The notes under the pieces are model-generated. The model was not told where the DNA came from. It made no database searches and saw only the letters and a list, made by a program, of their open reading frames with translations. This document shows, one piece after another, positions 7,084 to 62,022 of a stretch of DNA of 64,000 nt. Position numbers and translations under genes: made by a program. How positions within the stretch are numbered: position 1 is the first letter of the stretch; every line of letters starts with the position of its first letter. The stretch is taken from positions 4,855,346 to 4,919,345 of the forward strand of contig CM074761.1 of assembly GCA_037355855.1 (NCBI GenBank). The letters run 5' to 3'. Source of the DNA: Pseudo-nitzschia pungens (Eukaryota > Bacillariophyta > Bacillariophyceae > Bacillariales > Bacillariaceae).

Positions 7084-8705
7084 CGTCGTCGTCCCATTAC
7101 GTCCCGATTGCTGTGGGATTGGTTGACTCCGTCGCCGACGACCAGAAATGAGAAATTGTTTGGACGAACGGTGTCTCTTGCTTCATTCCGCGGTCCTTGC
7201 TTTCATTGTTATTTTGATGAGGGACGGAGTGAGAGGAGTGAGAGTGAATGGAATCATCAAAAAATCATCAAAAAATCATCCACCATCAATCATCCATCAT
7301 CGCCCGTTGAAACTCAAACCGGCATCAAATCACTGGTGCGTGATTCAACCGACCAGGAGTCTTGCGACCGGTACCGAATCGCAGATGAAAGCAAAGGTTG
7401 AGGGAGAGGAAAGGACTTGTGTGTGATTGCCGAATACTACTAGTACTAACCTTACTTGTTGTACGGTACCGTTGGAATCTATTCGTCATTGAACTAGTAG
7501 TATTCTAGAGGGGTAAGATCTTGCTGGTAGATGATCTATTTTGATACAATGGGATCAGCACCACGCAACAGGATAAGATGGGAATTCTGTAGCAGCAGCA
7601 ACAACAGCGGCATGAGGAGGAGTACTATCTGAAATGGGAGAAACAACCCTCCTGGTGTGGATTCTGTTCTTAAGAGGAGTGCACTGTTCAAGCAACAGAG
7701 CATAATGTAGTAGATATCAGTCATACTACTACTAGTAGTATGTTGACTCCTTGATGAAACCACAATTGTTGTTCCAGCACTAGTCTCATACTTGAATAAA
7801 TCCAGCAATGCACTTTTAGTGGTTACAACAAGGGCAGCCGAGATTAATTGATTCTTCTTGTTGCACCTAGTAACTGAGTATGTGTATACTACTAATAAGA
7901 ATATTTGAATGTAGCAGTCGAGAATGAGGAACAAGGACAGGTAGAAGATATTGATTTGAATAGGACTTTGTTCTTGAAAAATGCTGTTTTATGGTACTAG
8001 TACTAGATCAGTTGGTGGTGGTGGTGTTGCTTTCTTCCACTACGAGTGTACATACTACTACTACTAGTAGTAGTAGTACTACTAGTGGTGGTACTACTAC
8101 ATCATGCAAATGTGATCTCCTTTTGAGATGTTGATTGAACAATAATCACCACAGCGTCCATCATTCCTCGGTGCATGACTCTACCTGGACTCGGAGTCAG
8201 CTGACAGTGATTGTCTACTCCTAGACTAATAGTAGTATGAAAGTTCGGACATTGTATGGCTTCTTCTTCTTCTTGCTGCTTCTCCGCACGTTCATCTCAA
8301 TCAACCAAAAATAATGAGAGATACAGTACTAATTCAACCTAGAGCTCTTAGGACTATTTCATGTCGAATACTTGTTCTTCGGTGGTTCCACATTGCACCC
8401 AACTCGGACGAAATCACATCATCATGTGGATCAATCGCGTCACAGAATCACACATCAGACATCAACGTGAAACGAAACGAAACGAAACGAAAATCGGCAG
8501 TTTTCGCAGGTTGCAGAATCCTCGTTGGATGTCCCGTCGTTGGATGTGTAACCTTACCGTACGTCATGACAACCCAACCAAAGCTTCGTTTTCTTTTCTT
8601 CTCATTATTTTGATTGATTGATGAATAATCTTACTTGTGGCGAAACAAGAAAGGCGCACACAAAGTACTAGTCTCCACCCCGCCCGGAACGAAAAACCGT
8701 TTGCC
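7084..8705. other. Divergent intergenic spacer with TAG/CTA triplet runs
   Basis: No supported gene. It lies between the divergent starts of the low-complexity protein (-) and the MutS2 gene (+), so it should hold both promoters. It is rich in CTA/TAG triplets; 8049-8099 is a long partly palindromic run of ACT/AGT triplets able to fold on itself. One exact GTAACCTTAC lies at 8548-8557. An open frame at 7536-7934 (-) has no protein-like features. Confidence 0.5.
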
Positions 8706-11537
8706 ATGCCCAGCCCAGCCCGCGTCGCTCTTCTCTCCGTTCTGAATCTCTCGCTCTCGCTCTCGCTCTCGCTCTACTCGCACACGGCGTTGGGATTTTC
8801 GCCCGGCGGCTCGTTTCCGAAGAATTCCGCTCTCCTCTCGGTCGGCGACCCTTCTCGTCGACCGCTCGATTCGCCACCGGCATTCCGGATATCGGGGCAT
8901 TGCCCGGATCGACGACGACCGCGAACACTATCGTTGCTTTCGGGTGCAAAGGATGGAACCGCAAGTGCCGGTGCCAGTGCCGGTGCCCAGGACGAGTTCC
9001 CGCGCCACCTGATCGATTCGCTGGACCTGACCCAAATCATCGAGGAGATCGCAAGACACACTGCCACAAGGAGAGGGTACGACGCACTGTTATCAACCGT
9101 TCAGCGCAAACCCGCGAGGAGGGAACGAAACTCGGACAGGCTGTCGCTCTTCTCGAATCTACAACGGGAACGGTACGGTGTGACTGCTACTTCTTACGCG
9201 GGGCAACACGGACCTTCGTCGCTGGCACCCATTGCAAAATCCTTTCGCGACGTTCGATCCGAGTACGCGCTGGTTGAAGAGGCGACTCTGACGCTGTCGT
9301 CGACGAACAAAGCAGGCCTCGGTGATGATGATGATGACAACGATGCCTCGTACAACGATCTGACCTACCCTCCTCTGTACGGAGAACACAGCGGTCCTCA
9401 CGACATCGATACGATTCCCCAAACAGACGACGACGAATGGCTGTACCTTTCACCGGAAGAGTACACGGCGGAAAACCTTCTCCAGGCGGAGCAGGTGATA
9501 AAGAGGCTTCTCGAAATCCGCGAGTGGAGTCGACGGGAAGCAACACGGACCTGGGCACCAACACTGGCGCGGATGGGGTCGACCATCGACCGGGAGGAAA
9601 ACGTTCTCCAGCAGGTGTACGACGACGTGGCCGGAAACATCGAGATCGTCCGGGTCAAGTCCATTGCCGACCCCTCGGGGAAGGCCTCGTACTCGGTCCG
9701 GGTCAGGGAAGACCGGTTCCCGATTCTTCGCTCGCTCCGAGAAAAGGAACGGAAACTGGTGGCGAAAGGCGGAAAGGAATTCGACAAGGATCTCGTCGCG
9801 ATCCGCGCCGAGATCGAGGAAACCACGGCGCAGATCGTTGCCGGCCTGGCGCAAAAGGTGGTGGGTGCCTCCAAGAGTCTCGACCGCGGCCTGGGGATCG
9901 CGGCGCGCCTCGATGTGCTCCTGGCGAAGGCCGCGTACGCCCTTTCGATGAACGGAGTCGTCCCGTTCGTCGACGAGAAACGCGGGGAAATCTCCGTCGA
10001 GAATTTTCTCCATCCGGTCCTGCTCCGAACCATGGAAGACCGAGATCGCGTGGTCCCGATCGACCTGCGTCTGTCTTCCGTGGACAGCGAAGAGCGCGCG
10101 CTCGTCATCAGCGGACCCAACGGTGGCGGAAAGACCTTGTCGATGAAGTCGTTCGGATTGGTTTCTGTACTGACAAAGCTGGGGGTTCCCATCCCCGTGA
10201 AGGAGGGAAGCGGCCGACCCAGGGTGGATTACTTCGACGAAATCTTTGTCAATGTGGGCGATCAGCAGAGTGTTCTCGATGGAGAGTCCACGTGGACATC
10301 GATATTGAATTCGTGCGCTTCGATGATCCAAATCATTGAGGACCAACGGAGGGAAAGCAGCATCGAACCTTCCCACCTCGTGCTCCTGGACGAACTCGGC
10401 ACCGGCACCGATCCCGAATCGGGGGGCGCGGTCGCCCAGGCCGTCTTGGAAGAATTGATCGCAAAGTCCTGCCGGGTCGTTGTCACGACCCATTTGCCAC
10501 GACTCAAGGCATTGTCGTACGACGACGACAACATAGGCTGCGCAGCCGTCCTTCTGGACTACAGCGATCAGTCAACGTTTCAGAGACCGAGTTTCCGATT
10601 GGAATACGGTCTCATCGGAGAATCGCACGCTCTCGGGGCAGCCTCGAGGTGTGTCCCCTCCCTTCCCGAATCGGTCTTGTCCAGGGCCTCGGATCTGATG
10701 GACGATATCGACGAAACCGAACAGGACGGAACCCACAAGAGCTACATTCGGGCTCTGACCAGTTCTATGGAAGAGCAGCTGGAGCGTTCAAAGGTTGCAA
10801 CAATGTCGTTGGAAAACGATGCCGCCGATTCAACGAGATGCCGACGAGCCATGGTGTCGCTGGCACGATCCTACGAATGTCATCTGGATCGGAGATTGGA
10901 AAGCCTCGAATCTACCTTTCAGAAACTGAAAGCGAACGGAGAGTCGAGCGACTACGAGTTGGTCGGACAAATGCTATGGGAATTGAAAGCGGTGAGGAAA
11001 AAAGTTGTCAGCCAGGAGGAGGAGCTGGCCGCCAAGGGACTCCGAGTCTTGCCATTGAACTACGCGTTGAGTCCCGGGGAATCGGTTGTCATCATCTCGC
11101 AAGGAGAATGGGAAGGCATGACGGCCAAGGTTGTATCCGATGGATCCAGCGGTGATTCCTCTCTGGATCCGAACCAAGTCTTGGTCAGACCTTCCTTTTC
11201 GCTCCACGCGTGGGATGATGTCGTGCTGACCGATATCGACCCGATGGCAGATCGAGCACTCATTTTTCAGCGCCAAGAAATCGCAATATGGTCCATGGAC
11301 AGCATCTACGACGACAATGCTACCTTCCAATCCAAACCCGCAACGAGCATCTCGAATTCAAAGCAAAGGATCAACTCTCTGCTTTCCACTATCGATTCCG
11401 TGTCGAAGAAAGCCGATTCTCAAAAAGCCACCAATACCACGAAAGGGGGGAAAAAGTCCGGGAAAGGGAAAGGTTCTGGGAAAACTTTCACGTCCTCGAG
11501 ACAACGAAAAGCTGCAAACAAGGCGAAGAAGCGATAG
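8706..11537 (+). CDS. MUTS2: Plastid-targeted MutS2-type ATPase without Smr domain
   Basis: Intronless, 943 aa from the ATG at 8706; the frame opens earlier only at GTG. The N-terminus is a Leu/Ser-rich signal peptide ending ALGF-SPG, a diatom plastid-entry site. The body follows MutS2: coiled helical core with a clamp-like middle, then the ATPase with Walker A GPNGGGKT (residues 470-477), Walker B LVLLDELGTGTD (Asp at about 562) and the TTHLPRLKAL switch. After a charged coiled coil comes a KOW-like strand-rich segment (GESVVIISQGEWEGM...). Bacterial and plant MutS2 proteins usually end in an Smr endonuclease domain; here the C-terminus is instead a Lys/Gly-rich basic tail. MutS2 ATPases bind branched DNA or stalled ribosomes. 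I infer a plastid role in DNA maintenance or ribosome rescue. Confidence 0.85.
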   Translation: MPSPARVALLSVLNLSLSLSLSLYSHTALGFSPGGSFPKNSALLSVGDPSRRPLDSPPAFRISGHCPDRRRPRTLSLLSGAKDGTASAGASAGAQDEFPRHLIDSLDLTQIIEEIARHTATRRGYDALLSTVQRKPARRERNSDRLSLFSNLQRERYGVTATSYAGQHGPSSLAPIAKSFRDVRSEYALVEEATLTLSSTNKAGLGDDDDDNDASYNDLTYPPLYGEHSGPHDIDTIPQTDDDEWLYLSPEEYTAENLLQAEQVIKRLLEIREWSRREATRTWAPTLARMGSTIDREENVLQQVYDDVAGNIEIVRVKSIADPSGKASYSVRVREDRFPILRSLREKERKLVAKGGKEFDKDLVAIRAEIEETTAQIVAGLAQKVVGASKSLDRGLGIAARLDVLLAKAAYALSMNGVVPFVDEKRGEISVENFLHPVLLRTMEDRDRVVPIDLRLSSVDSEERALVISGPNGGGKTLSMKSFGLVSVLTKLGVPIPVKEGSGRPRVDYFDEIFVNVGDQQSVLDGESTWTSILNSCASMIQIIEDQRRESSIEPSHLVLLDELGTGTDPESGGAVAQAVLEELIAKSCRVVVTTHLPRLKALSYDDDNIGCAAVLLDYSDQSTFQRPSFRLEYGLIGESHALGAASRCVPSLPESVLSRASDLMDDIDETEQDGTHKSYIRALTSSMEEQLERSKVATMSLENDAADSTRCRRAMVSLARSYECHLDRRLESLESTFQKLKANGESSDYELVGQMLWELKAVRKKVVSQEEELAAKGLRVLPLNYALSPGESVVIISQGEWEGMTAKVVSDGSSGDSSLDPNQVLVRPSFSLHAWDDVVLTDIDPMADRALIFQRQEIAIWSMDSIYDDNATFQSKPATSISNSKQRINSLLSTIDSVSKKADSQKATNTTKGGKKSGKGKGSGKTFTSSRQRKAANKAKKR

Positions 11538-17462: not shown

Positions 17463-20400
17463 CTACTTTTTCCGACGGGACTTCTTCTTCGAAGAAGAAG
17501 AAGAAGAACCGTCCGACGACCTCGATTTTCGTTTGCTCGGCGATTCTTGCGCAAATGCGGGACCGAGCAGCTCGATCACCAGTTCGCGCTGATACGCTTG
17601 GATTTCTCGAACCCAGATTTTTACCCGGACCTTGTCAAACACCTGGATCGAAACGTCGCCGTCGTACACAATCTTGTTTTCTTTCGGGAAACGACCCAGT
17701 TTCGGATCGTCCGAGGAAACGGGAAGCTTCACCTGTCCCTCGATGCCGTATTGAGGAATCATGACGCGGATGGAAGGGTCGCTCTTCTCGGCGGTTTCAA
17801 CGTCCAGGACGTACGCGTCTTCTTCTTTCGAACCGTTCGCAAAGAAGATGAGCGTGTGGAGCTGCACGCTCGCCCGTCCCGCCAGTTGCGCGGCTCTGTG
17901 TCTTCGATTCATGTTGGAGCATAAATCGTGGAGGTACGATTTGGAAGACAAATGGGGCGGAAGCGGAGCGACGTTGATTGCTGCCGCGAGCAAACGATGA
18001 ACGCAGACGTCCGCGTATCTGGAACGTTGAGGATCGAGACGACAAACGATGTGAGGAGACCGCGGTTGCGCAAGAGCCGACATCTACCCCTTCCCCCCAC
18101 AACAAAAAAAAAAGACAGCGACAGCGACAACGTACCTCCGAATGGGCGAAGTGAAATGGGTGTACACGGGTGCCGCGAGACCGTAGTGGTGCCAATCCAT
18201 CGGTCTGAATTCACCGGAGCAAAAGTACTGGGCCGGCGACATGCACCGCGTCGACAAGATCCGGAGCAATTTGTTGAAATACGGTTCGCTCTCGATCGTG
18301 GCCGCGTCGAGCGAATCCGCGAGCCTCTTGGAGTTTTCGATGTCGATCTCGAATCCCCGGCACCTCGCCTTGCCGATGAGTCCCTCGAACATGGCTCGGT
18401 TCGGCGACGGATGCCTTCTCAGCACCGACAGGGTCGGGTAGTGGCGAAGGATTTTCTTCGCGACGGTGATGTTCGCCAGGAGCATGAATTCCTCCACGAG
18501 CGCGTTGGCCTCCAGCAGGGCGTAGGCTTGCACGTCGGTCGGATTCAGGGATTCGCTGTCCAGGACGAATTTCACCTCCGGCGACGCGAGCGTCAGCGCG
18601 CCCGCGTCGATTCGTTTCTTCCGGAATTTCCGGGCGAGCGAGGCGAGTCTCTTGACCGCGCCCACCTGGGGATCGTTGCCGTCGTTTTCGGGCTGGTCGA
18701 TGAAGCTCTGGGCCTGCTGATAGGTGAGAGCGGCGATGGAGTGGATGATGGTCTTTTTGAAATCCACGTTCAGTATCTCGGCGTCGGGCGTCACCTCCCA
18801 GATCACGGAGAACGCGTATCGGTCGACGTCCGCCCTCAGACTGCACAGATCCGTCGTCAGGAGCGCGGGCAACATGTCGAGACGCTTGTTGACGAGATAC
18901 GTCGAGGTCGACCGGTTGGCGGCTTCCAGGTCCATGGCGCTCCCCGGCGAGACGTAGTGGGTCACGTCGGCGATCGAGACCCCGACCTGGTAGTTCCCGT
19001 TCGGAAGAACGATGCAGTGGAGAGCGTCGTCGATATCCTTGCAGCCCGGCGGATCGATGGACAGAACGGGCAAATGCCGGAGATCGAGGCGATCGGGAAC
19101 CATGGTGATCTCGTAGTCCTTCGGCGGAAGACACGCCAGCACCTGTGCCGGAAAGGGTTCGTGCGCGATCTTGAACTGCCGCAGGAGGACCTCGGTTTCC
19201 ACGTCCTTCGATCCGGCCCTGCCGATGGTTTCGACGTAGTGACCGAGCGGAAGGGACGAGTGGGAGGGCCACGAGTCCATGGTGACAACGATGCGCTGCC
19301 CCAGCAAGCGCTCGCGCTGCGACGTCCGGATCAGAATGGGCGGAATCTTGTCGTCCGTCGGAAAAAACACGCACGCGACGCTTCCGTCGGCGTGCTCTCG
19401 CTCGTTTTCGAGGGCGATTTTTTCGCGTTCCGTCGGTGTTTCGTTTCCGGACCCGGTCGCCTCGCTCTCGTAGATCGAACCGCTGTAGCTGGCAAAGTTT
19501 CGTCGCAGTATTCCGACAACCCTGCCGGTTGGTTTCAGGTTGTTGCTGTTGTTGCTGCTGCTGCTGTTGCTGCTATTTTTGGAAGCATCGTCGTCCGCGT
19601 TCATGGCAATCGTGTCGGGAACGTTTGTGAGCTCGCTCTGGGTGGGCTCCGCGGTTTCGCTCGCTATTCCCGTTGCCGCGTTCTCCCCTTCCGCTTCCGG
19701 TTCCGCGTCGCGCCGAACCGAGATCCATTTTTCGAGCGCGTGCAACTCGATCGCGACAATGTCCCCGTCGATGGCTCGATTCCGATCGATCGACCCCCGG
19801 ATCGTGACGGCGATCCGTTCCTCGCCCCTCCGAATGGTAACGTACGCCGATTTCGCGTCTCTCTCGGATCGGAGGGTCCCCCTGTAGTACCGACCCGACT
19901 TGACGCCCAGCGAGAGGTCGGCTTGCCCGACGTGGGGAGGGAAGATGTCCTCTCGGCGGTTGTTGTTTTTGTTTCCGCTTCCGCTTCCGCCCGATTCCCC
20001 ATTGGCAGTCGTTGGTGCGCCGCTTCCGCCGTACTGAGCCACCAAATCCGTCAGCGAGAGACCCGGGTTGAGATCGTCGAGTTCCCTCGCCCAGCTCCGG
20101 ACCGACACGGCCTCGTAGAGGTGTTTGTCTCGGGCCGCTGCCTCGCGGGATGCCTTATCGTCGGTCAGGAGAATGACCCGAAAGTTGGACCCCCGCAGGT
20201 GCTCCCCGAAGAGCGCGGCAACGTTTCGAATCCTGGCATCGTTCTCGTCGTTGATGCTCTCAATATTTGCGCTCGCGTTAGTGTGCGCCGTTTGGGAATG
20301 GTGCATGTCGGGAAAGAATACGCAGCACCGATCGCGGTGCCCGTGCCCGTCCCCGACCTCCCTCAGCAATTCCACGGCCCGATCGTAGGCGACCGCGCGG

Positions 20401-20858
20401 TTCGATCGGCACTCGAGCAGCGCCGTTTGCGGAAAGACCAGGTTGGGCATCACCGCTCGGCTCCGCTCCAGAACGTCGAGGTTGTGCAGGAGGACGTTGG
20501 TGTCGCAAACGACGAGGGCCTTCGGCTCGCTCGTCGCCTTTAGCAGCGACAGGAGGTGGTTCGCGTTCTCGATGGTTCGGGGCCTGGCGACCGTCGCTTC
20601 CTTCGCGCGCCGATTGCTCGCGCTCACGCCGCCCTCGTCGGCGTCGACGAAGTAACAACCCAGTCCGAGATCGTCCCGGAGGTATCGCTCCGACACCTGC
20701 TTGATGATCTTGCCCTTCTTGCGGGTCTGCCTGAAAAACGCCGGGCGGAGATACAGCGATGGGGCCGCGAGAATGTCGCACCCATTGGTTTCCTGGTCGT
20801 CTTCGTCTTCGTCTTCGTGGTCGAGGTCGCTCTCCTCTCCGTCTCCTTCCTGCATCAT
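17463..20858 (-). CDS. DIS3: RRP44/DIS3 exosome ribonuclease
   Basis: Two exons on the minus strand, 20858-18136 and 18018-17463, with a 117-nt intron (GTACGT donor) inside the codon before YADVCVHR; 1092 aa, near the usual 950-1050. An acidic N-terminus precedes the family's KxxKxxxxRYLRDDLGLG segment. The PIN endonuclease domain shows D119 (VVCDTN), E149 (ALLEC), D207 and D233/D234. Cold-shock-like domains follow. The RNB exonuclease domain carries DPPGCKDIDD, with D602, D608, D610 and D611 in place for two metals. An S1-like domain ends in an SSSSSKKKSRRKK tail. It is the catalytic subunit of the nuclear and cytoplasmic exosome; both active sites look intact. A long Asn run lies in a linker near residue 430. 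A divergent promoter is shared with the FUN14-like gene. Confidence 0.95.
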
Positions 20859-36852: not shown

Positions 36853-39802
36853 ATGACATCTTTTCTAGATCAATACAAGGACTTTGTCCTCAAGCTCAAG
36901 ATAAAAACAGCCGACGGTAAGCAACACCTCGTGTTCTGTGCTGAGTGCTCTTCGAAACCATCCTCTGGGAGTCGTGATTCCGGTTTTTGTGTATACTTTT
37001 GTCTTTGGTGCAAGCGTACGGTGCGGTATCTAGCCACCAAATGGATTCTTTCATCTCACAACTTGATGCATTTCCGCAGGACAAAGTCAAATTCGTCGGG
37101 TGGGTTTGCCCCGCATCGCGAATGCTGATGGTACGAACGTATCGTACGAGGAATTGGTCGACCTCGTGATCGTCTTTTTCTCGTTCCCCGAGGTGGAATC
37201 CTTGAAACAGGATTCTGGAAAGTACACGGTTTCTCTGACGTACTACGATGACGAGAAGGATCTGATCACTTTGGCCTCGACGGAAGAACTCATGGATGCC
37301 ATTGAATTGTTCGGTGAACAGAAATTCATGAGAATCACGGCTAGTGTCAAACCGAAGGGTTCCTATTCAGCTTCGTCGGGTTCAACTTCCACTGCACAGG
37401 TTCACGCGCGTGATGCTGCCGCATCGTCCTACAGTCGTGGTAGGTCGGTTGGAGAGGAAGATGAAGATCTAGCGCCTCCCCCCGTGAAAACGATTCTGAC
37501 GACTTTTGCCGGAATTCTGTCCAAAGCTGCCAATGAGCTGCCAGAATGCTTGGCCAATCAAGCGAAATCCAGAATTCGCAACGAGGTAGAAACTCCTTTG
37601 CCCACGGCACCCACTGAATCAAAACCAGATCTTGATGAAACTCAAGCAACGGCGTCTGATTCTTGCGACAGGAAGCCACCTCCCAAAGCAAAGTCGAGTA
37701 TGAGCAGCAGAATGCGGCAACGAAAGTCGACCAAAGCAGGGAAAGAAGAAGAACGGTCGAACGCAACGCCTTTGCGGCGTAATCTTTCGTCGTCCCCCAA
37801 TGCGAAGCTCAGCGCGAAAGCAGCAAACGAAGCGAAGTCGAATGATAACAGGGGCCGTAGTGGGTCCGTGGGCAAAGCCAAGAAGCCGAAAGATGCATCA
37901 AAGCAGCCGTTCATCCACGGAAGGCACACCTGTGATGGATGCCTCGCTACTCCCATTGTTGGAAAGCGCTATCGTGCCAAGAACATTCCCGACTGGGATT
38001 TGTGCCAGTTTTGTTTCGACAACTACCAAGGAGACGACATCAAATTCGAAGCCGTGACGCTTGCCTGTGATGTACACATGCAGACGCGCTGGCACCGCAA
38101 GTACCAACAGATTGTTGCGGAAATGAAGTTTCGAAGTCTCTATGGGCCGCGACATTCACGATCTCGTGGCAGCCAAACAGGAAGCGATGTTGATGGGCGT
38201 GGCCAATCCCGGGTCGAGAGTAGTCCTATCCAACGCCCAGTCTCCAGTGAGCCTGCTGCTTCTCGTGATGTTGGAACGGACCCCATTGCACCTTCGGCGA
38301 ATGCTGACGTCTCGACGGAATACGAAAATTCATTGAAGGAAGCGATTCGTCGAAGCTTGGAGGATGTTGCTCCGGAGGCAAATCCTTCTTCCAATACGAA
38401 CGCCGAAGACAACAGGGTCGAAATGATTGCCCATTCCGAGAAGTCGCACTCCACCGTCGAGGAGAGTGCTGTCAAGGAGAGTGCCAAGTCGCACTCCACC
38501 GGCGAGGAGAGTGCTGTCAATGAAAGTGCTACAAAGGAGAGTGCAGTCAAGGAGAGTGCTGTTGTAGATCAAGGTCCGAAGAATGAGAGCAGTGTATCCA
38601 TTGGTGGCGCCACTACTTCCGAGGTGGAAATGAAAGAGCTCAAAACCACCGCCGAAGATAATGTTGTCAGAGATGAATCGACTGGTAACGTAACGAAATG
38701 TGTAGTCGAAGATGAAGGTGCAGGGACGGGAGAAAGTGTAACGAGGGACGAGAGCACGCTTGCTCCTGTAAAAGTTTCAAAACATGAGGTGACGAAAGAC
38801 GAGCGTGCTCCTAGTGATCAATCCGGACACACCAAGTCCATTGCAGAGGACGTCACTATCCCTCGGTCGGTAGAAATTTTGGACAAGAAAACTACGAAAG
38901 AGGATGGTGATGATTGTGATGAGTCCACTTTGGATGATCCTTGCGAGAATTGCGAGCTTAAGATTGCCGAGAGTTTGGAGCGAGGAATGGACACCGATTC
39001 GGTTGATTCGGAGAAGCTTCTCAAAGAAGCCAATGGACTCCCTTCCGGCATTGATCAAACTTTGAAGGACAAGGGATCCGATACTCCGCGTTCGAGACAA
39101 AGTAGCTTTCGACATTTGCAAGACGAGTCTTTTGCTTCCGATGCCATAGGGAACGGCGATGTTGCAGAAGTTATGGGCAAAACATTTGACTTGGTGGCAG
39201 GAGTAATTTCTGAGATGCTGTCTGAATTTGACGAGCAACAGCCGGTGATCGGAGACATGACTGAGATGTTGTCGGAATCTGACGAGCAAAAGCCTAGTTC
39301 CGCAGAAAGCAGTTCCGAAATGGATTTGGAGAGGGAGAAGGGAGAGCTCATTGTGAACTCCAATGATGACACTAGTGGGGCTATTGAGGAAGAGGATGAC
39401 ACGGATTGGAGTGTTGTGAAGTCCGTTTGTACAACCGAAACAAGCGAGTCGCAAAAAATTGGTCAAGCTACTCAGATGCTTGGGTCTGCACTTTTCAACA
39501 GTGATCTCCAGACTTCGCAGAACAACGCTTCTGATATGGTCTCCAACTCTTCATTATCCATTCCTAGTTCCGTTCCTACCGAACCCGGAACCGTGAACTC
39601 ATCTTTTGTTCGGCCATCTCACTATATTCGATGGGCAACCGAGCTCGAGAAGCTTCGAGAACTGGGTTTTGACAACGAAGAGAAGTGCGTTCAGATCCTG
39701 GAAATGCTTGATGCAGCGTCAGAGCTTAAATCGGAGTCCAACGAAATCTCATCAAACATCAGCCGAGTTTTAACTGAGCTCCTTGAGTTGAAGGATGAAT
39801 AG
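36853..39802 (+). CDS. PB1-ZZ-LIR-UBA protein, p62/NBR1-type selective autophagy receptor
   Basis: Two exons, 36853-36916 and 37080-39802 (GTAAGC donor, CGCAG acceptor); 928 aa. The intron lies inside the PB1 domain (residues about 10-100). That domain has KLKIK and the basic IRRV pair on one face and the OPCA acidic motif YYDDEKDLITL on the other, so it can self-polymerise like p62. A disordered stretch follows, then a ZZ zinc finger (about 300-350) beginning HTCDGC and continuing PIVGKRYRAKNIPDWDLCQFC. A very long Ser/Glu-rich region with ESAVKESA-type repeats ends at EEEDDTDWSVV, an Atg8-interacting (LIR) motif with W798 and V801 and acidic residues before it. The C-terminal 60 residues (LEKLRELGFDNEEKC...) fit a UBA domain. 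NBR1's four-tryptophan domain is absent. Confidence 0.85.
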
Positions 39803-40338: not shown

Positions 40339-41553
40339 ATGATAGGATCCGAGAACTGTGACGACAGTTGCGGTTTTCTCGCTGCATTATTAGGTGCAAG
40401 TTGTTATGGATCATATGGTGTCCCTGTCAAAGCAATGTCATCGGTAAATATACATCCACTAGTAATACAGAGCTACAGTACTGTTGTGGTCTTTGTGTCC
40501 TCGTTGGTCGTTGTTTTCAACGAAGAGTGGCCGTCATGGACTTCGTATGGATTTTTGTCTGGGCTTCTGTGGGTATGTGGTGGCATTCTTGGAATCTTCG
40601 CTATTCGAAATGCCGGGATAGCTGCCTCAGTCGGAATATGGTCGAGCATTATGGTGATTATCAACTTTGTTTGGGGCATTCTTGTATTTCGCGAACCGAT
40701 ACATTCTTTCGCTAGAACATGTGGTGCATTCTTGTTTCTAGGTATCGGTTTGGTTGGGATGACAAAATTCTCGTCGCCGAGTTCAATACACAGTGACGAC
40801 AGTTCGAATGAAAACCGTACGGAAGCTAAGTCTGTCATGGATGTTGAGTTCGTCGCGAAGAAAGAAGGGGTATTGACAAGTGAGCCAGGACTGACGTTAC
40901 GAACCAAACGAGGTGCCAATAGCGACGAACCAACAAAACTTTCCGGGAGACCGACAGATGATGCCGAATACGAAAGTGACAAAAATTTTGAGAAAAAAAG
41001 TTCATCAAAAAAGAACGGAACTCTGTTAAAAGTGTTAGGTCGACCCTTGACGGGCTGGCAGGCTGGGGCAATCTGTGCTGGATTGGATGGCTTGTTGGCG
41101 GGTTCGTCTCTGGTTCCATTGCATTATGCGAAACTTGAAGGATATTCCGATTTATCATACTACATTAGCTTTACATCTGGCGCCCTTATTGTGAATGTAA
41201 GTTTGTGGGTCATATTGTACCTTTCTAAAATCACGCATTCATCAGTCGATACGTCGATGCCTCGATGGTATGTGAAGGAATTGGGATTAAGACTCCTAAT
41301 AGCGGGATCGTTATCAAACGGTGGAATGTTTGGCAGTATTTTGGCGACATCAAGTCTCGGACAAGCCGTTGGCAACAGTTTGATTCAGTTGAAGATTTTT
41401 ATTTCTGGATTATGGGGGATTTGTTATTTCCAAGAAATAAAGGATCGGCGGTCAACGATCAGCTGGTTCCTTTCTGCGACTATTTGTGTCACAAGCATTC
41501 TTTGTCTGACATATGAACGAAGAACGAATTCTCAAGAGGAAGTTGTAGAGTGA
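40339..41553 (+). CDS. TMEM144-like ten-helix membrane transporter, intronless copy
   Basis: 404 aa, single exon. About ten hydrophobic helices in two groups of five are separated by a hydrophilic loop (residues about 140-235). Family blocks are near-identical to the second copy at 46.7 kb: GASCYGSYGVPVK, HPLVIQSYSTVVVFV, IRNAGIAASVGIWSSIMVIINFVWGI, then VPLHYAK, GQAVGNSLIQLKIFISGLWGI and TISWFLSA. This is the TMEM144 family of the drug/metabolite transporter superfamily, thought to carry sugars or related solutes across internal membranes; substrate unknown. The other copy has three introns, so this one may be a retrocopy or a lineage that lost introns. No signal peptide beyond the first helix. 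Confidence 0.85.
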   Translation: MIGSENCDDSCGFLAALLGASCYGSYGVPVKAMSSVNIHPLVIQSYSTVVVFVSSLVVVFNEEWPSWTSYGFLSGLLWVCGGILGIFAIRNAGIAASVGIWSSIMVIINFVWGILVFREPIHSFARTCGAFLFLGIGLVGMTKFSSPSSIHSDDSSNENRTEAKSVMDVEFVAKKEGVLTSEPGLTLRTKRGANSDEPTKLSGRPTDDAEYESDKNFEKKSSSKKNGTLLKVLGRPLTGWQAGAICAGLDGLLAGSSLVPLHYAKLEGYSDLSYYISFTSGALIVNVSLWVILYLSKITHSSVDTSMPRWYVKELGLRLLIAGSLSNGGMFGSILATSSLGQAVGNSLIQLKIFISGLWGICYFQEIKDRRSTISWFLSATICVTSILCLTYERRTNSQEEVVE

Positions 41554-56193: not shown

Positions 56194-57387
56194 TTATTCC
56201 TCCGAGGACGATGGATCGAAAAAATTGTTGGCAGTAACAGTGGGTATAATGTTGTAAGAAAAGAATCCAGGTGTATCACTCACGAAAGTGTTCCGAATAG
56301 TGTTGATCCCTATCTTGCTCGTCTGATAATTGTACAAGTGAATTACAAGGAAGAGTATCACTTTCCTTTCTTCTATTTGCATCCGGTCTTTTAACCGGGG
56401 GAATCCTCCTTGTATCTGACGCATCCCCCACTCAGATAATTGTCGACAGCTTGTTGCAGCTCGGTTCAGTGCAACTCCAGCCGGTGTGTCTGGATCTCTT
56501 TGAGAACTTTTAATTAGGAAATCCTTGGATCCTACATTGAACGCAGAGTCAACTACCACTCTGGCTTTGAACCGGTCATAGATGTGCTCCATTTTTCCAT
56601 ATAAGCCATAATCAGCTTGTGTACTATCGTGCCAACTGCCGGGACAATTAAGCGTACAGGCCCTGATCAAACCGTCAGGACCGAAGATAATAACAGAGTT
56701 GACGTGTGTGTTTGATGTCCAACCATTGTGGTATCGGTTTTGAATCCTCCAATTACAAGACCTCTGCAAATCAAGTTTAAGTCCATCACAAGCTGCCCAG
56801 ACTCGATGCTGTCCTAATAGTGGATACTTGGCACCGATAACTTTGATATAATTTTCGATTTCGTCTTTATCTGGCAATCGAACGCGGGCAGAAGGATCCT
56901 TTTGTATTGCAAAAAGAAGTACTCTCCTGCCAAATATAAGCCATTTATACATAGGAGTGGCAGTTAATCCAAAGGCTAGACTAATCGATCTTGCTGCTGA
57001 TCCACGCGTTCGAAACCAGTACAACACTAGCCCAAGACAACCCACAGCATCCATGTCGCGTCTTCGACCTTTCATCTTTTCGGGTTTCCGAACAATGCAT
57101 CTTGTTGTCTCATTGTATGTATACATGTCAAAATAGGGTTCAAAGATAGCAAGCAGTTCGTGAAAGACTTTATGATCCATTCCACAACAGTTGAGAAGGG
57201 CTTGATCGTCCCCAGATCCAAACATGTAAGCGAATGGGGATGATGTGTATCTACGGATGGAGATTCGAGGATTTCTTCGGTCTCGTCTTCTTTTATCTTC
57301 AGGGGATAACTGCCTATAATTGTAATCAGGCATTCTATATTTCTTATAGTAGTAATAGAAAAAAATCATTTCGAGTGTTGACACCAT
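56194..57387 (-). CDS. Harbinger DDE transposase
   Basis: 397 aa, intronless, starting at the minus-strand ATG 57387. The N-terminal half is helical with a helix-turn-helix-like DMDAVGCLGLVLYWFRTRG and SAARSISLAFGLTATPMYKW. The DDE_Tnp_4 nuclease domain has D201 in VWAACDGLKLDLQ, the NGWTSNTHVNSVIIFGPDG strand pair, PGSWHDS, D280 in ARVVVDSAF and E319 in LSEWGMRQIQG. These acids are in the right order and spacing to hold the metal ions. The C-terminus has the FLVIHLYNYQTSKIGINTIRN helix and an acidic end. No stop or frameshift is present. It is coded opposite to its DNA-binding partner, with 300 bases between the two stops. Confidence 0.93.
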   Translation of the reverse strand: MVSTLEMIFFYYYYKKYRMPDYNYRQLSPEDKRRRDRRNPRISIRRYTSSPFAYMFGSGDDQALLNCCGMDHKVFHELLAIFEPYFDMYTYNETTRCIVRKPEKMKGRRRDMDAVGCLGLVLYWFRTRGSAARSISLAFGLTATPMYKWLIFGRRVLLFAIQKDPSARVRLPDKDEIENYIKVIGAKYPLLGQHRVWAACDGLKLDLQRSCNWRIQNRYHNGWTSNTHVNSVIIFGPDGLIRACTLNCPGSWHDSTQADYGLYGKMEHIYDRFKARVVVDSAFNVGSKDFLIKSSQRDPDTPAGVALNRAATSCRQLSEWGMRQIQGGFPRLKDRMQIEERKVILFLVIHLYNYQTSKIGINTIRNTFVSDTPGFFSYNIIPTVTANNFFDPSSSEE

Positions 57388-59580: not shown

Positions 59581-62022
59581 ATGCTCGCAACGTTTGGGAC
59601 GGGACTGCGGAGAATCCGCGGTGCAACAGGCGGTGTTCCCGGTTTGTCACTGTCGATGTTCCTGTCCACGCGGGCGGCACCATGGAAACCAATGGCAAAG
59701 GATTTGCTGAAGCGCACCAAGGACTTTGATGCAAAAATCCATCGATTCGGATCCGGATTCGAAACCGGATTCGCCGTCAACGGGCAGATGGGAGCGGAGA
59801 ATCACGCACTTTTGAACGACTGGCGACACCTGCTGTTCCAAATACCACAGGACGAAACGAAATTCCTTTCCCAAAGCGCGACTTCCATCGACAAAATCCT
59901 TCGCATCAACCTGGACCAGCTCTCAGAGAAAGACGAGGACACCAGGAATGAATCCGAACACAAGAATGGTTTTCAGCCATCACCGACGCTCCGAGAGGAT
60001 ATAGCGACTGGGATCTATGCCTGGGGTAGAGCAGCACGGGAGGATTCGAATGCTCCGTTGAGAGCGGAAGCGTTGGCGGAACAATTTGACAAAATCGACG
60101 ACGACGACAAGTCCGAGGACGAAACCTCGGTTTTGCGTCACAATCGCGACATTTACTCGGCTCTGGTCTACTGCTGGTCACAGGCTCCTGCGAACGAAAT
60201 AGCGTCGGAAAAATCTCTCTTTTGGTTTCGAAAGATGCTCGACCGTCAGCCCACGGCCGTTACTCCCGAAGCTTGGAATGCGCTTCTCCGAATCCACGTC
60301 AAGCAAGGAAAATTCTCGTGGATCGAAAAGAATCTGCTGGAACAACACTCTTCCCTCAACAACGGCTACTCGTATGTCAGTCTCGTCGAAGGTTGGATGG
60401 ACTCGAACGATCCGGATGGCGTGAGAAAAGCTAACCAAGCACTGCAACGCGGCATTGCCTACTGTATCGACAAACGGGATCGGACTCCCGCGCTGCAGCA
60501 GCTCCTTTATCGGTACCTGATGAAAAGCATCGAAAAAAATCTTGCCGTTGACTACGAGCGCGTGATGAACCAGGCACTCGTGCTCCAGCAAGACAACCCG
60601 GAGCTCGAAATCCTGGATGCAAAGCACTTTATTGTGGTGATGAACGCCATGATTGCCACCGGAGACTCCGACAAGGTCGTCGAACTGTTCCAAAGAATGC
60701 AAGTGGCCTACGAACGAGGCTCCGAACGATTGAAGCCCGACGACTACCAGGTTCTAGTGGCGGTTTTGTTGGCCTTGTCGAAGACAAAAAATTCTCAGAG
60801 TGTCGAAGACTGCGAGGGTCTGCTGTCGATGATAGAGTCCTATGTAATGACAGATCAATCATCGGCCAGTGAAATTTCCAATCATGCTTACAACATAGTC
60901 ATAGATTGTTTTGTTCGATTTCGGCATGTCGAGGACAGGAGCAAACGCGTGGAGATGTTGATTCGGCGCATGGAAAAGCTGTCGACCGAGCACAACAATT
61001 CACAATTACTACCCGACAAAGTCTCGTACTCCGCATTGATGAAAGCGATTGTGCTAGAAAACAAACCGGGTTGCCTTTCGGAGGTCGAAGACATACTTCA
61101 ACGAATGGAAAGTTCCGATGTTCCTTCTATGCAACCGGATCGGAATGTGTACACCGTCGTTCTAGAGGCTATTTTGAAAAATGGTGGTGATACAGCCCTT
61201 TTCCAGGCACGACGCTTGATGGACAGAATGGAACGGATCGCCAATCTTCAACCGGACAGGATAATGTACACCATTTTGATGAAATTTCATTCCGTGACCG
61301 GTGACGTCCGCCTGGCAGATGAAGTGTTGAAAACAATGATCGAAGCCTATCGGAATGGACGCACCGATTGCTGTCCTAACGAAAAAGCCTTTGTCACTGC
61401 AATCAGTGCATGGGAACGATCGGAACAGGAGGGAGTCCCGGACGAAGCGTTCAGGCTTTTTAACGATATGGTTTCTCTGTACGATAGCGGGATTGAAGAA
61501 TGCCGACCATCACGGAAAACTTTTGGAATGCTGATGGTGATTCTTGCGAAAACAGAACACGAATCGAAGCTGCAGATGGCCCAAAACCTCATCTCTCAAA
61601 TGGAAACACATGGCGTCACCCCCGACTTGACAATATTGAATTGGTACATGCGGGTTTGCACCACAATCGCTAGCAAGGATCCAATTCATCGACGAGAAAG
61701 TTGGACGGAAGCCTTGCTTGCGTTCAACATACTGCAGGAAAAGGGATTGGCAAATTCCCACAGCTACAACTCCATATTCCATGCCTGTGACAAGTTCGTT
61801 CTCGATCCACGGGAGCGATATTCCTTTTTCCGGGATACGTACTACAAGTGCAGAAGCGACGGGCGAGTCGATCGGAAAATTTTGACATCGCTCCGGCGAT
61901 TCCTTTCTCCAAAGGTTTACCGCCATCTGACCAAGTTGGACCCCAGGGACAACGGGATAAAGATGAAACTCTATCGGCAATTGAATGATTTCGATGCTGG
62001 CGACAGTGGAGCAACGCGTTAG
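59581..62022 (+). CDS. Pentatricopeptide-repeat (PPR) protein, probably mitochondrial
   Basis: 813 aa, intronless, ATG at 59581. The N-terminus is basic, hydroxylated and free of acids for 35 residues (MLATFGTGLRRIRGATGGV), suggesting a mitochondrial presequence. From about residue 200 to 780 there are repeated 35-residue helical pairs with PPR signatures: VYCWSQAP, VTPEAWNALLRIHVKQGK, HFIVVMNAMIATGDSDKVVELFQRM, VSYSALMKAIVLEN, RNVYTVVLEAILKNGGD, RIMYTILMKFHSVTGDVRLADEVLKTMIEA, KTFGMLMVILAKTE and LTILNWYMRVCT. I count at least ten. There is no SMR, DYW or E domain. PPR proteins bind single-stranded organelle RNA to process, stabilise or translate it; the RNA target cannot be read by eye. Confidence 0.9.
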   Translation: MLATFGTGLRRIRGATGGVPGLSLSMFLSTRAAPWKPMAKDLLKRTKDFDAKIHRFGSGFETGFAVNGQMGAENHALLNDWRHLLFQIPQDETKFLSQSATSIDKILRINLDQLSEKDEDTRNESEHKNGFQPSPTLREDIATGIYAWGRAAREDSNAPLRAEALAEQFDKIDDDDKSEDETSVLRHNRDIYSALVYCWSQAPANEIASEKSLFWFRKMLDRQPTAVTPEAWNALLRIHVKQGKFSWIEKNLLEQHSSLNNGYSYVSLVEGWMDSNDPDGVRKANQALQRGIAYCIDKRDRTPALQQLLYRYLMKSIEKNLAVDYERVMNQALVLQQDNPELEILDAKHFIVVMNAMIATGDSDKVVELFQRMQVAYERGSERLKPDDYQVLVAVLLALSKTKNSQSVEDCEGLLSMIESYVMTDQSSASEISNHAYNIVIDCFVRFRHVEDRSKRVEMLIRRMEKLSTEHNNSQLLPDKVSYSALMKAIVLENKPGCLSEVEDILQRMESSDVPSMQPDRNVYTVVLEAILKNGGDTALFQARRLMDRMERIANLQPDRIMYTILMKFHSVTGDVRLADEVLKTMIEAYRNGRTDCCPNEKAFVTAISAWERSEQEGVPDEAFRLFNDMVSLYDSGIEECRPSRKTFGMLMVILAKTEHESKLQMAQNLISQMETHGVTPDLTILNWYMRVCTTIASKDPIHRRESWTEALLAFNILQEKGLANSHSYNSIFHACDKFVLDPRERYSFFRDTYYKCRSDGRVDRKILTSLRRFLSPKVYRHLTKLDPRDNGIKMKLYRQLNDFDAGDSGATR

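Follow-up and report, generated by a model that had tools for sequence, protein, structure and literature searches.

A 64,000-nucleotide stretch of the genome of the diatom Pseudo-nitzschia pungens (GenBank assembly GCA_037355855.1, contig CM074761.1, positions 4,855,346 to 4,919,345; hereafter the window) carries on its forward strand a two-exon gene for a protein of 928 residues (36853..39802). We consider it probable that this gene encodes a soluble selective-autophagy receptor of diatoms that belongs to the NBR1 lineage, is without the four-tryptophan (FW) domain and resembles animal p62 by convergence. By sequence and models, the protein combines a PB1 domain with both charged faces, a ZZ domain, a helix resembling a ubiquitin-interacting motif (UIM), a presumably exposed acidic LC3-interacting region (LIR) and a UBA-like fold, and has no FW domain.

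Gene structure and conserved elements

The gene starts with the ATG at 36853 and stops at 39800-39802. Exon 1 (36853-36916) and exon 2 (37080-39802, containing the reading frame 37100-39802) flank a 163-nucleotide intron of the GT...AG type (36917-37079, GTAAGC...CCGCAG), which splits the PB1 domain. The splice junction is supported by P0001, the closest relative in the homology search (923 residues, 85% identity over 100% of the query), because this protein runs colinear and uninterrupted across it. In the spliced product IRRV stands at residue 26 and WSVV at 798, and the only tryptophans are at 327, 359, 798 and 873. The elements follow one another in the order PB1, ZZ, UIM-like helix, long disordered linker, LIR and UBA-like domain, all on the forward strand; besides PB1 and ZZ, Pfam finds no further family in the protein up to an E value of 10. 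An earlier reading made from the letters of the DNA (the sequence-only reading) had proposed the p62-like order PB1, ZZ, LIR and UBA, and the spliced protein, with its Pfam calls for PB1 and ZZ, its LIR and its UBA model, bears this out. That reading did not include the UIM-like helix, the loss of a zinc site, the conserved block that follows the LIR or two amphipathic helices.

The protein belongs to a family that we count as P0001-P0206 of 221 proteins, some of them fragments, with P0207-P0221 left out. The homology searches scored the roughly 8,000 candidates that share most words with the first 500 residues, which biases them toward relatives keeping ZZ and UIM; the LIR and UBA counts in long members are freer of this bias. 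Scored with family-built profiles and a loose LIR pattern, PB1 is present in 191 of the 206 family proteins, ZZ in 205, UIM in 190, LIR in 169 and UBA in 166. All five occur together in 131 of the 206, and in 116 of the 153 members that begin with Met and have at least 560 residues. The named members, a minority among the matches listed, are diatoms (Pseudo-nitzschia, Cylindrotheca, Nitzschia, Seminavis, Mayamaea, Attheya, Eucampia, Ditylum, Entomoneis and others). The sole non-diatom name among the family matches listed is a transcriptome of the ciliate Tiarina, whose match we suspect to come from algal food. Some members deviate in layout: P0044, P0052 and P0006 have two ZZ domains, P0162 has KH domains, P0193 is without a UIM match and has a ubiquitin/SUMO-like domain inserted after PB1 and before ZZ, and P0091 has a candidate RanBP/NZF-type zinc finger (E 0.0018, under the Pfam cut-off) that is possibly another ubiquitin reader. 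Residue conservation is given below over an alignment of 131 rows, drawn from the 148 proteins left after removal of near-copies (17, mostly short, were dropped by hand). The motif regions stand out as conserved islands, with mean top-residue frequencies of 0.46-0.77, against 0.08 and 0.11 for two linkers.

The intron-interrupted PB1 domain (residues 11-112; 36883..37351) scores 26.8 bits against a Pfam cut-off of 23.6. Its basic pair R27-R28 (37094..37099) is Arg in 101 and 103 of the 131 rows, with a gap there in 25. The acidic OPCA motif (residues 76-96; 37241..37303), aligned to the PB1 domains of p62 and AtNBR1, keeps D77 and D81 in 128 rows each and E90 in 121 (P0001 numbering). The domain therefore has a basic and an acidic face, as in SQSTM1/p62, and both the pair within IRRV and the OPCA motif, picked out in the sequence-only reading, are conserved across the alignment. 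Between PB1 and ZZ lies a conserved amphipathic helix (residues 157-180; 37484..37555), recognized by model and hydrophobic moment: the P0001 model is helical over 156-173, and the moment of residues 157-174 is 0.49, where the 95th percentile of the protein is 0.44. A profile search of the genome (66.9 Mb, 28 contigs) finds one other PB1 match, the locus L007 (C3:3011600-3014836), in which PB1 comes after CBS-like repeats and a hydrophobic tail stands at the end (both by eye). We considered L007 as a receptor-specific membrane partner and dropped this reading because the locus is, by eye, the terminal part of a gene containing CBS-like repeats, and Chromista are already reported to have CBS proteins in which PB1 is C-terminal (PMC7051960).

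The ZZ domain (residues 299-362; 37910..38101; PF00569) scores 35.4 bits against a cut-off of 21.4. Zinc site 1 is intact, with C306, C309, C330 and C333 kept in every row of two alignments (106/106 and 131/131). The second CxxC is absent: residue 321 is Ala or Ser in 105 of 106 rows and Asn in one, and at least 104 of the 106 have a residue other than Cys at 324. One zinc site has therefore been lost throughout the aligned family. This is no diatom novelty, and we reject it as a diatom-only trait, because four plant-type NBR1 proteins (RYKSQVKEDYDLC and similar) are also without the second CxxC. The nearest solved structures are the ZZ domains of HERC2 and p62, the former (6ww4) at 1.3 Å over 55 of its 56 residues. 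The ZZ of p62 uses D129, N132, R139, D147 and D149 to bind N-terminal Arg (Zhang et al. 2018, PMC6197226); when we place these residue numbers on the ZZ alignment, they correspond to D307, L310, R318, D326 and D328. Four of the five pocket residues are kept (D307, R318 and D328 in all 131 rows, D326 in 128), and the position of N132 is Leu in 122 of 131. By this alignment the diatom ZZ is likely to be a reader of N-terminal amines; that it has strict Arg specificity is doubtful. Five further ZZ loci in the genome were considered as paralogues and rejected, one being sirtuin-like, one Ada2-like and three p300/CBP-like by eye.

Tandem repeats of 45 and 15 nucleotides (38441..38562) encode an ESAVKESA-type linker. 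The repeats noted by the sequence-only reading are there, ESAVKESA occurring exactly twice (residues 483 and 508); the ZZ-to-LIR distance is about 430 residues. Farther on, a conserved helix (residues 705-738; 39128..39229), placed by conservation and model, has a mean top-residue frequency of 0.60 and is modelled in P0001 as a helix over 710-735, with a model confidence (predicted local distance difference test, pLDDT) of 88-94 for residues 701-730 and 61 for 731-740.

The LIR, or ATG8-interacting motif (AIM), with its acidic lead (residues 791-801, core W798-S-V-V; 39386..39418) was located by alignment and model. IEEEDDTD precedes WSVV, in line with the EEEDDTD of the sequence-only reading, and W798, exactly the residue named there, is kept in 131 of 131 rows. 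The pLDDT of the P0001 model is below 50 on both sides, and the WSVV segment is presumably exposed. Neither burial nor poor conservation, the two weaknesses that had been anticipated for this motif, was seen. A conserved block follows it (SQKIGQATQMLGSALFNSDL, residues 812-831; 39449..39508), with a mean top-residue frequency of 0.70; this block, which includes MLGSALFNSD, and the helix at 705-738 equal or exceed the whole LIR region (0.47) in conservation. At the C terminus, a UBA-like domain (residues 871-925; 39626..39790) rests on model and profile: it is modelled as a UBA-like helical bundle, contrary to the concern that the last residues might not fold in this way, and a profile search matches three UBA proteins (UBL7, Dsk2 and ubiquilin-1) in the same region.

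Elsewhere in the window, five of ten neighbouring frames scanned give matches, none of them relevant to the receptor: MutS domain V (8637-11534, forward), a Dis3-type exoribonuclease (18087-20858, reverse), a TMEM144 transporter (40339-41550, forward), a DDE_Tnp_4 endonuclease (56197-57387, reverse) and pentatricopeptide repeat (PPR) proteins (59581-62019, forward).

The UIM-like helix and its predicted partner

The UIM-like helix (residues 437-451, ENSLKEAIRRSLEDV; 38324..38368) starts 75 residues past ZZ and was recognized by conservation, model and consensus match. A443 and S447 are invariant (131/131), position 444 is Ile in 125 rows and Val in 6, and E442 and R445 are kept in 129 and 128. 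The P0001 model has a helix over 432-448 (pLDDT 74-76), flanked by disorder. The motif is UIM-shaped and strongly conserved, and its binding partner is a prediction.

A review gives the consensus of ATG8-binding UIMs as hydrophobic-hydrophilic-x-A-hydrophobic-x-x-S (phi-theta-x-A-phi-x-x-S; PMC7301642). At the aligned site 126 of 131 rows match it, against 0.16 matches per shuffled protein, and the window protein itself matches at 440 (L440-K-E-A-I-R-R-S447). A classical ubiquitin UIM pattern fits 118 of 131 rows, with 0.13 expected.

It is possible, as a tentative reading, that the protein is the receptor we propose and that this helix is a second ATG8 contact, made with the face of ATG8 that carries the UIM-docking site (UDS), and not a ubiquitin binder. 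Besides the consensus matches, the organism's own ATG8 speaks for this: the genome search finds one ATG8 locus, on contig C3, with a cleavable-looking STFG end and, at the UDS position, LFLF, which by eye fits the published UDS pattern (PMC7301642). The identical residues, however, fit the classical ubiquitin UIM pattern as well. Moreover, 20 of the 206 members match PB1, ZZ, UIM and LIR but no UBA, and if these proteins are complete the UIM would be their sole ubiquitin reader. A conserved Arg pair, which looks unusual for a UIM, is also among the points that count against a second ATG8 contact. RPN10, a further protein for comparison, is not known to have PB1 or ZZ. It resembles the diatom protein in having a UIM of the kind covered by the ATG8-binding consensus, and differs in that it belongs to the proteasome and lacks a canonical AIM (PMC7301642). 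In the p62 and NBR1 literature covered, we did not meet a motif of UIM type.

Receptor or ubiquitin scaffold

Taken together, the elements make selective autophagy receptor function likely. PB1 domains would assemble head to tail into filaments, and the UBA, probably together with the UIM, would hold ubiquitinated cargo; proteins whose N-terminus is free and basic may be recognized by ZZ. The many LIRs along each filament would then bind lipidated ATG8, drawing the phagophore over the cargo.

The protein could instead be a ubiquitin scaffold with work other than autophagy, serving for example endosomal sorting by ESCRTs (endosomal sorting complexes required for transport) or delivery to the proteasome, with the tryptophan motif meant for another partner. 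Such proteins also have UIM and UBA, and Schizosaccharomyces pombe Nbr1 is reported to work with ESCRTs and not with autophagy components (PMC9582228). Nevertheless, an acidic W-x-x-V is kept in every aligned row within disordered sequence, and PB1, ZZ, LIR and UBA in combination form a receptor layout; we regard the scaffold as improbable.

Relation to NBR1 and p62

The absence of the FW domain, which the sequence-only reading had pointed out, was checked in the protein, the family and the genome. PF16158 does not match the window protein up to an E value of 10, there is no FW in the precomputed Pfam columns of the family matches listed (105; the best 120 of 142; P0206 and better), and the 25 of 31 families listed for the 27 members scanned do not include PF16158. 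The genome has no match to PF16158 or to the FW of P0214 (see below), a search that had no positive control for either, though the same method found PB1, ZZ and ATG8.

Beyond the family (E 2e-36 or better), the search crosses to plant and fungal proteins of NBR1 type. Of the top eight matches outside diatoms, with E values from 3e-17 to 6e-10, seven have FW; the first is the FW-less P0207 (3e-17), and the best FW-bearing protein follows at 7e-15. The p62-like P0219 appears at E 0.04, with a single FW-bearing fungal protein ranking after it (E 0.09). P0207, a metagenomic protein, has a second FW-less layout, PB1-ZZ-ZZ-NBR1-type UBA (UBA_NBR1_C, 25.4 bits, cut-off 27); judging by it, repeated loss of FW outside animals is possible.

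The outgroup protein P0214 (metagenomic, 640 residues) retains what the diatom family appears to have lost. It has PB1 at 3-73, ZZ at 119-162, a UIM-like motif at about 312-326 (DFLEEALRQSLEG), FW at 378-476 (Pfam, 99 bits), WHLL at 483 and UBA at 584-638. FW sits between the UIM-like motif and the LIR (EDDHG-WHLL), and the protein is otherwise colinear with the diatom family. The likeness extends from the order of elements and the UIM-like motif past ZZ to the UBA, which matches positions 3-53 of the diatom profile and is the outgroup UBA closest to it (20.6 bits; the four plant-type NBR1 proteins reach 7.5-12.3 and the p62-like protein 3.4). P0214 differs in keeping FW, in its length of 640 residues and in retaining a single Cys of the second CxxC. 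The land-plant NBR1 proteins (P0208, P0209, P0212 and P0213, two of them from named plants) share with the diatoms the basic and acidic PB1 motifs, a UBA, a ZZ without the second CxxC (RYKSQVKEDYDLC is from P0208) and a weak sister position in the tree. By contrast, all four have FW, two UBA domains (by eye) and no match to the UIM pattern, and in a profile-profile comparison PB1 was the one part that aligned.

From this we conclude that the family most likely descends from the NBR1 lineage, that its FW was lost in or before diatoms and that it came to the p62 layout by convergence, separately from animals. An FW domain once placed between UIM and LIR would have been lost, and the p62 arrangement thereby reached a second time. 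The case for NBR1 minus FW is carried by architecture, not by the tree. The tree, of PB1, ZZ and UBA (27 rows, 228 columns), comprises 19 diatom rows and 8 of the 15 other proteins, with a single p62-like row; P0221 and six proteins of fungal type with multiple ZZ domains were not included. The diatom rows form one clade (100/99).

Several results weigh against this conclusion or the elements on which it is built. The sister of the diatoms is unsure, the tree pairing them with plant-type NBR1 at 79/68; the approximately unbiased (AU) test rejects neither diatoms with P0214 (p 0.18) nor diatoms with p62 (p 0.30, one p62-like row). The PB1 of P0214 scores 20.5 bits against the family profile, below the p62-like protein (24.7) and the plant-type ones (27.2-29.7), and its ZZ (35.5 bits) falls below those of P0207 and the plant-type proteins. 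The Pfam check proposed by the sequence-only reading, which places PB1 and ZZ above their cut-offs, calls no UBA in the window protein or in fragment scans. Nor do Pfam scans of the whole protein and of a fragment call a UIM at our helix; PF02809 lists 12 places in the genome, none at this helix, being a 17-residue model whose scans are affected by HMMER filters and candidate limits. A UIM profile retrieves no UIM from the PDB. The sequence-only reading had offered two accounts, a loss of FW that happened independently and a separate receptor of stramenopiles; both fit an FW-less diatom family, and the tree leaves the sister group open.

SQSTM1/p62 of animals is like the diatom protein in its PB1 basic pair and OPCA motif, ZZ, acidic LIR, C-terminal UBA and lack of FW. 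It differs in that the diatom protein has the UIM-like helix, has lost the second CxxC of ZZ, has Leu in place of N132 and has a longer loop between helices 2 and 3 of the UBA. The diatom family is thus p62-like by resemblance. That diatoms kept the p62 copy of an NBR1-p62 duplication older than animals, and have a true orthologue, is very unlikely: the FW-less layout, the AU test and the PB1 scores would allow it, but P0219 is a far weaker match than the eight best outgroup proteins, its UBA score is far below that of P0214, and Rasmussen et al. (2022) limit p62 to Metazoa, giving Monosiga and Capsaspora a single NBR1 but no p62 (PMC9582228).

Rasmussen et al. judge p62 by the absence of FW and define NBR1 as FW plus PB1 or ZZ (PMC9582228); with no PF16158, the diatom protein falls outside that definition of NBR1. 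Mutte and Weijers (2020) describe Chromista NBR1 as multiple partial proteins in polyphyletic groups (PMC7051960), and the proteins in their count may include the diatom family. A 2024 review states that algal genomes encode NBR1 and that receptor function in algae is still to be addressed (PMC11449223). The literature searched, mostly at listing level and hence weak evidence of absence, held no FW-less p62/NBR1 from a diatom or other stramenopile and no receptor with PB1 and UIM. A receptor of the NBR1/p62 type is known; the new variant is an FW-less diatom family with an added, strongly kept UIM-like motif.

More speculatively, diatoms may have a kind of receptor of their own: a p62-like filament former that arose by independent loss of FW, in which the UIM offers a second dock, for ubiquitin or the UDS, and a one-zinc ZZ reads N-degrons. 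If so, one molecule would link ubiquitin, N-degrons and two surfaces of ATG8. An FW-less layout in a family found across diatoms suggests that the absence of FW, used as a criterion for p62, can catch convergence, and loss of FW beside a two-faced PB1 may be a repeatable route. For diatoms, the family provides a concrete candidate receptor and an extra motif open to test.
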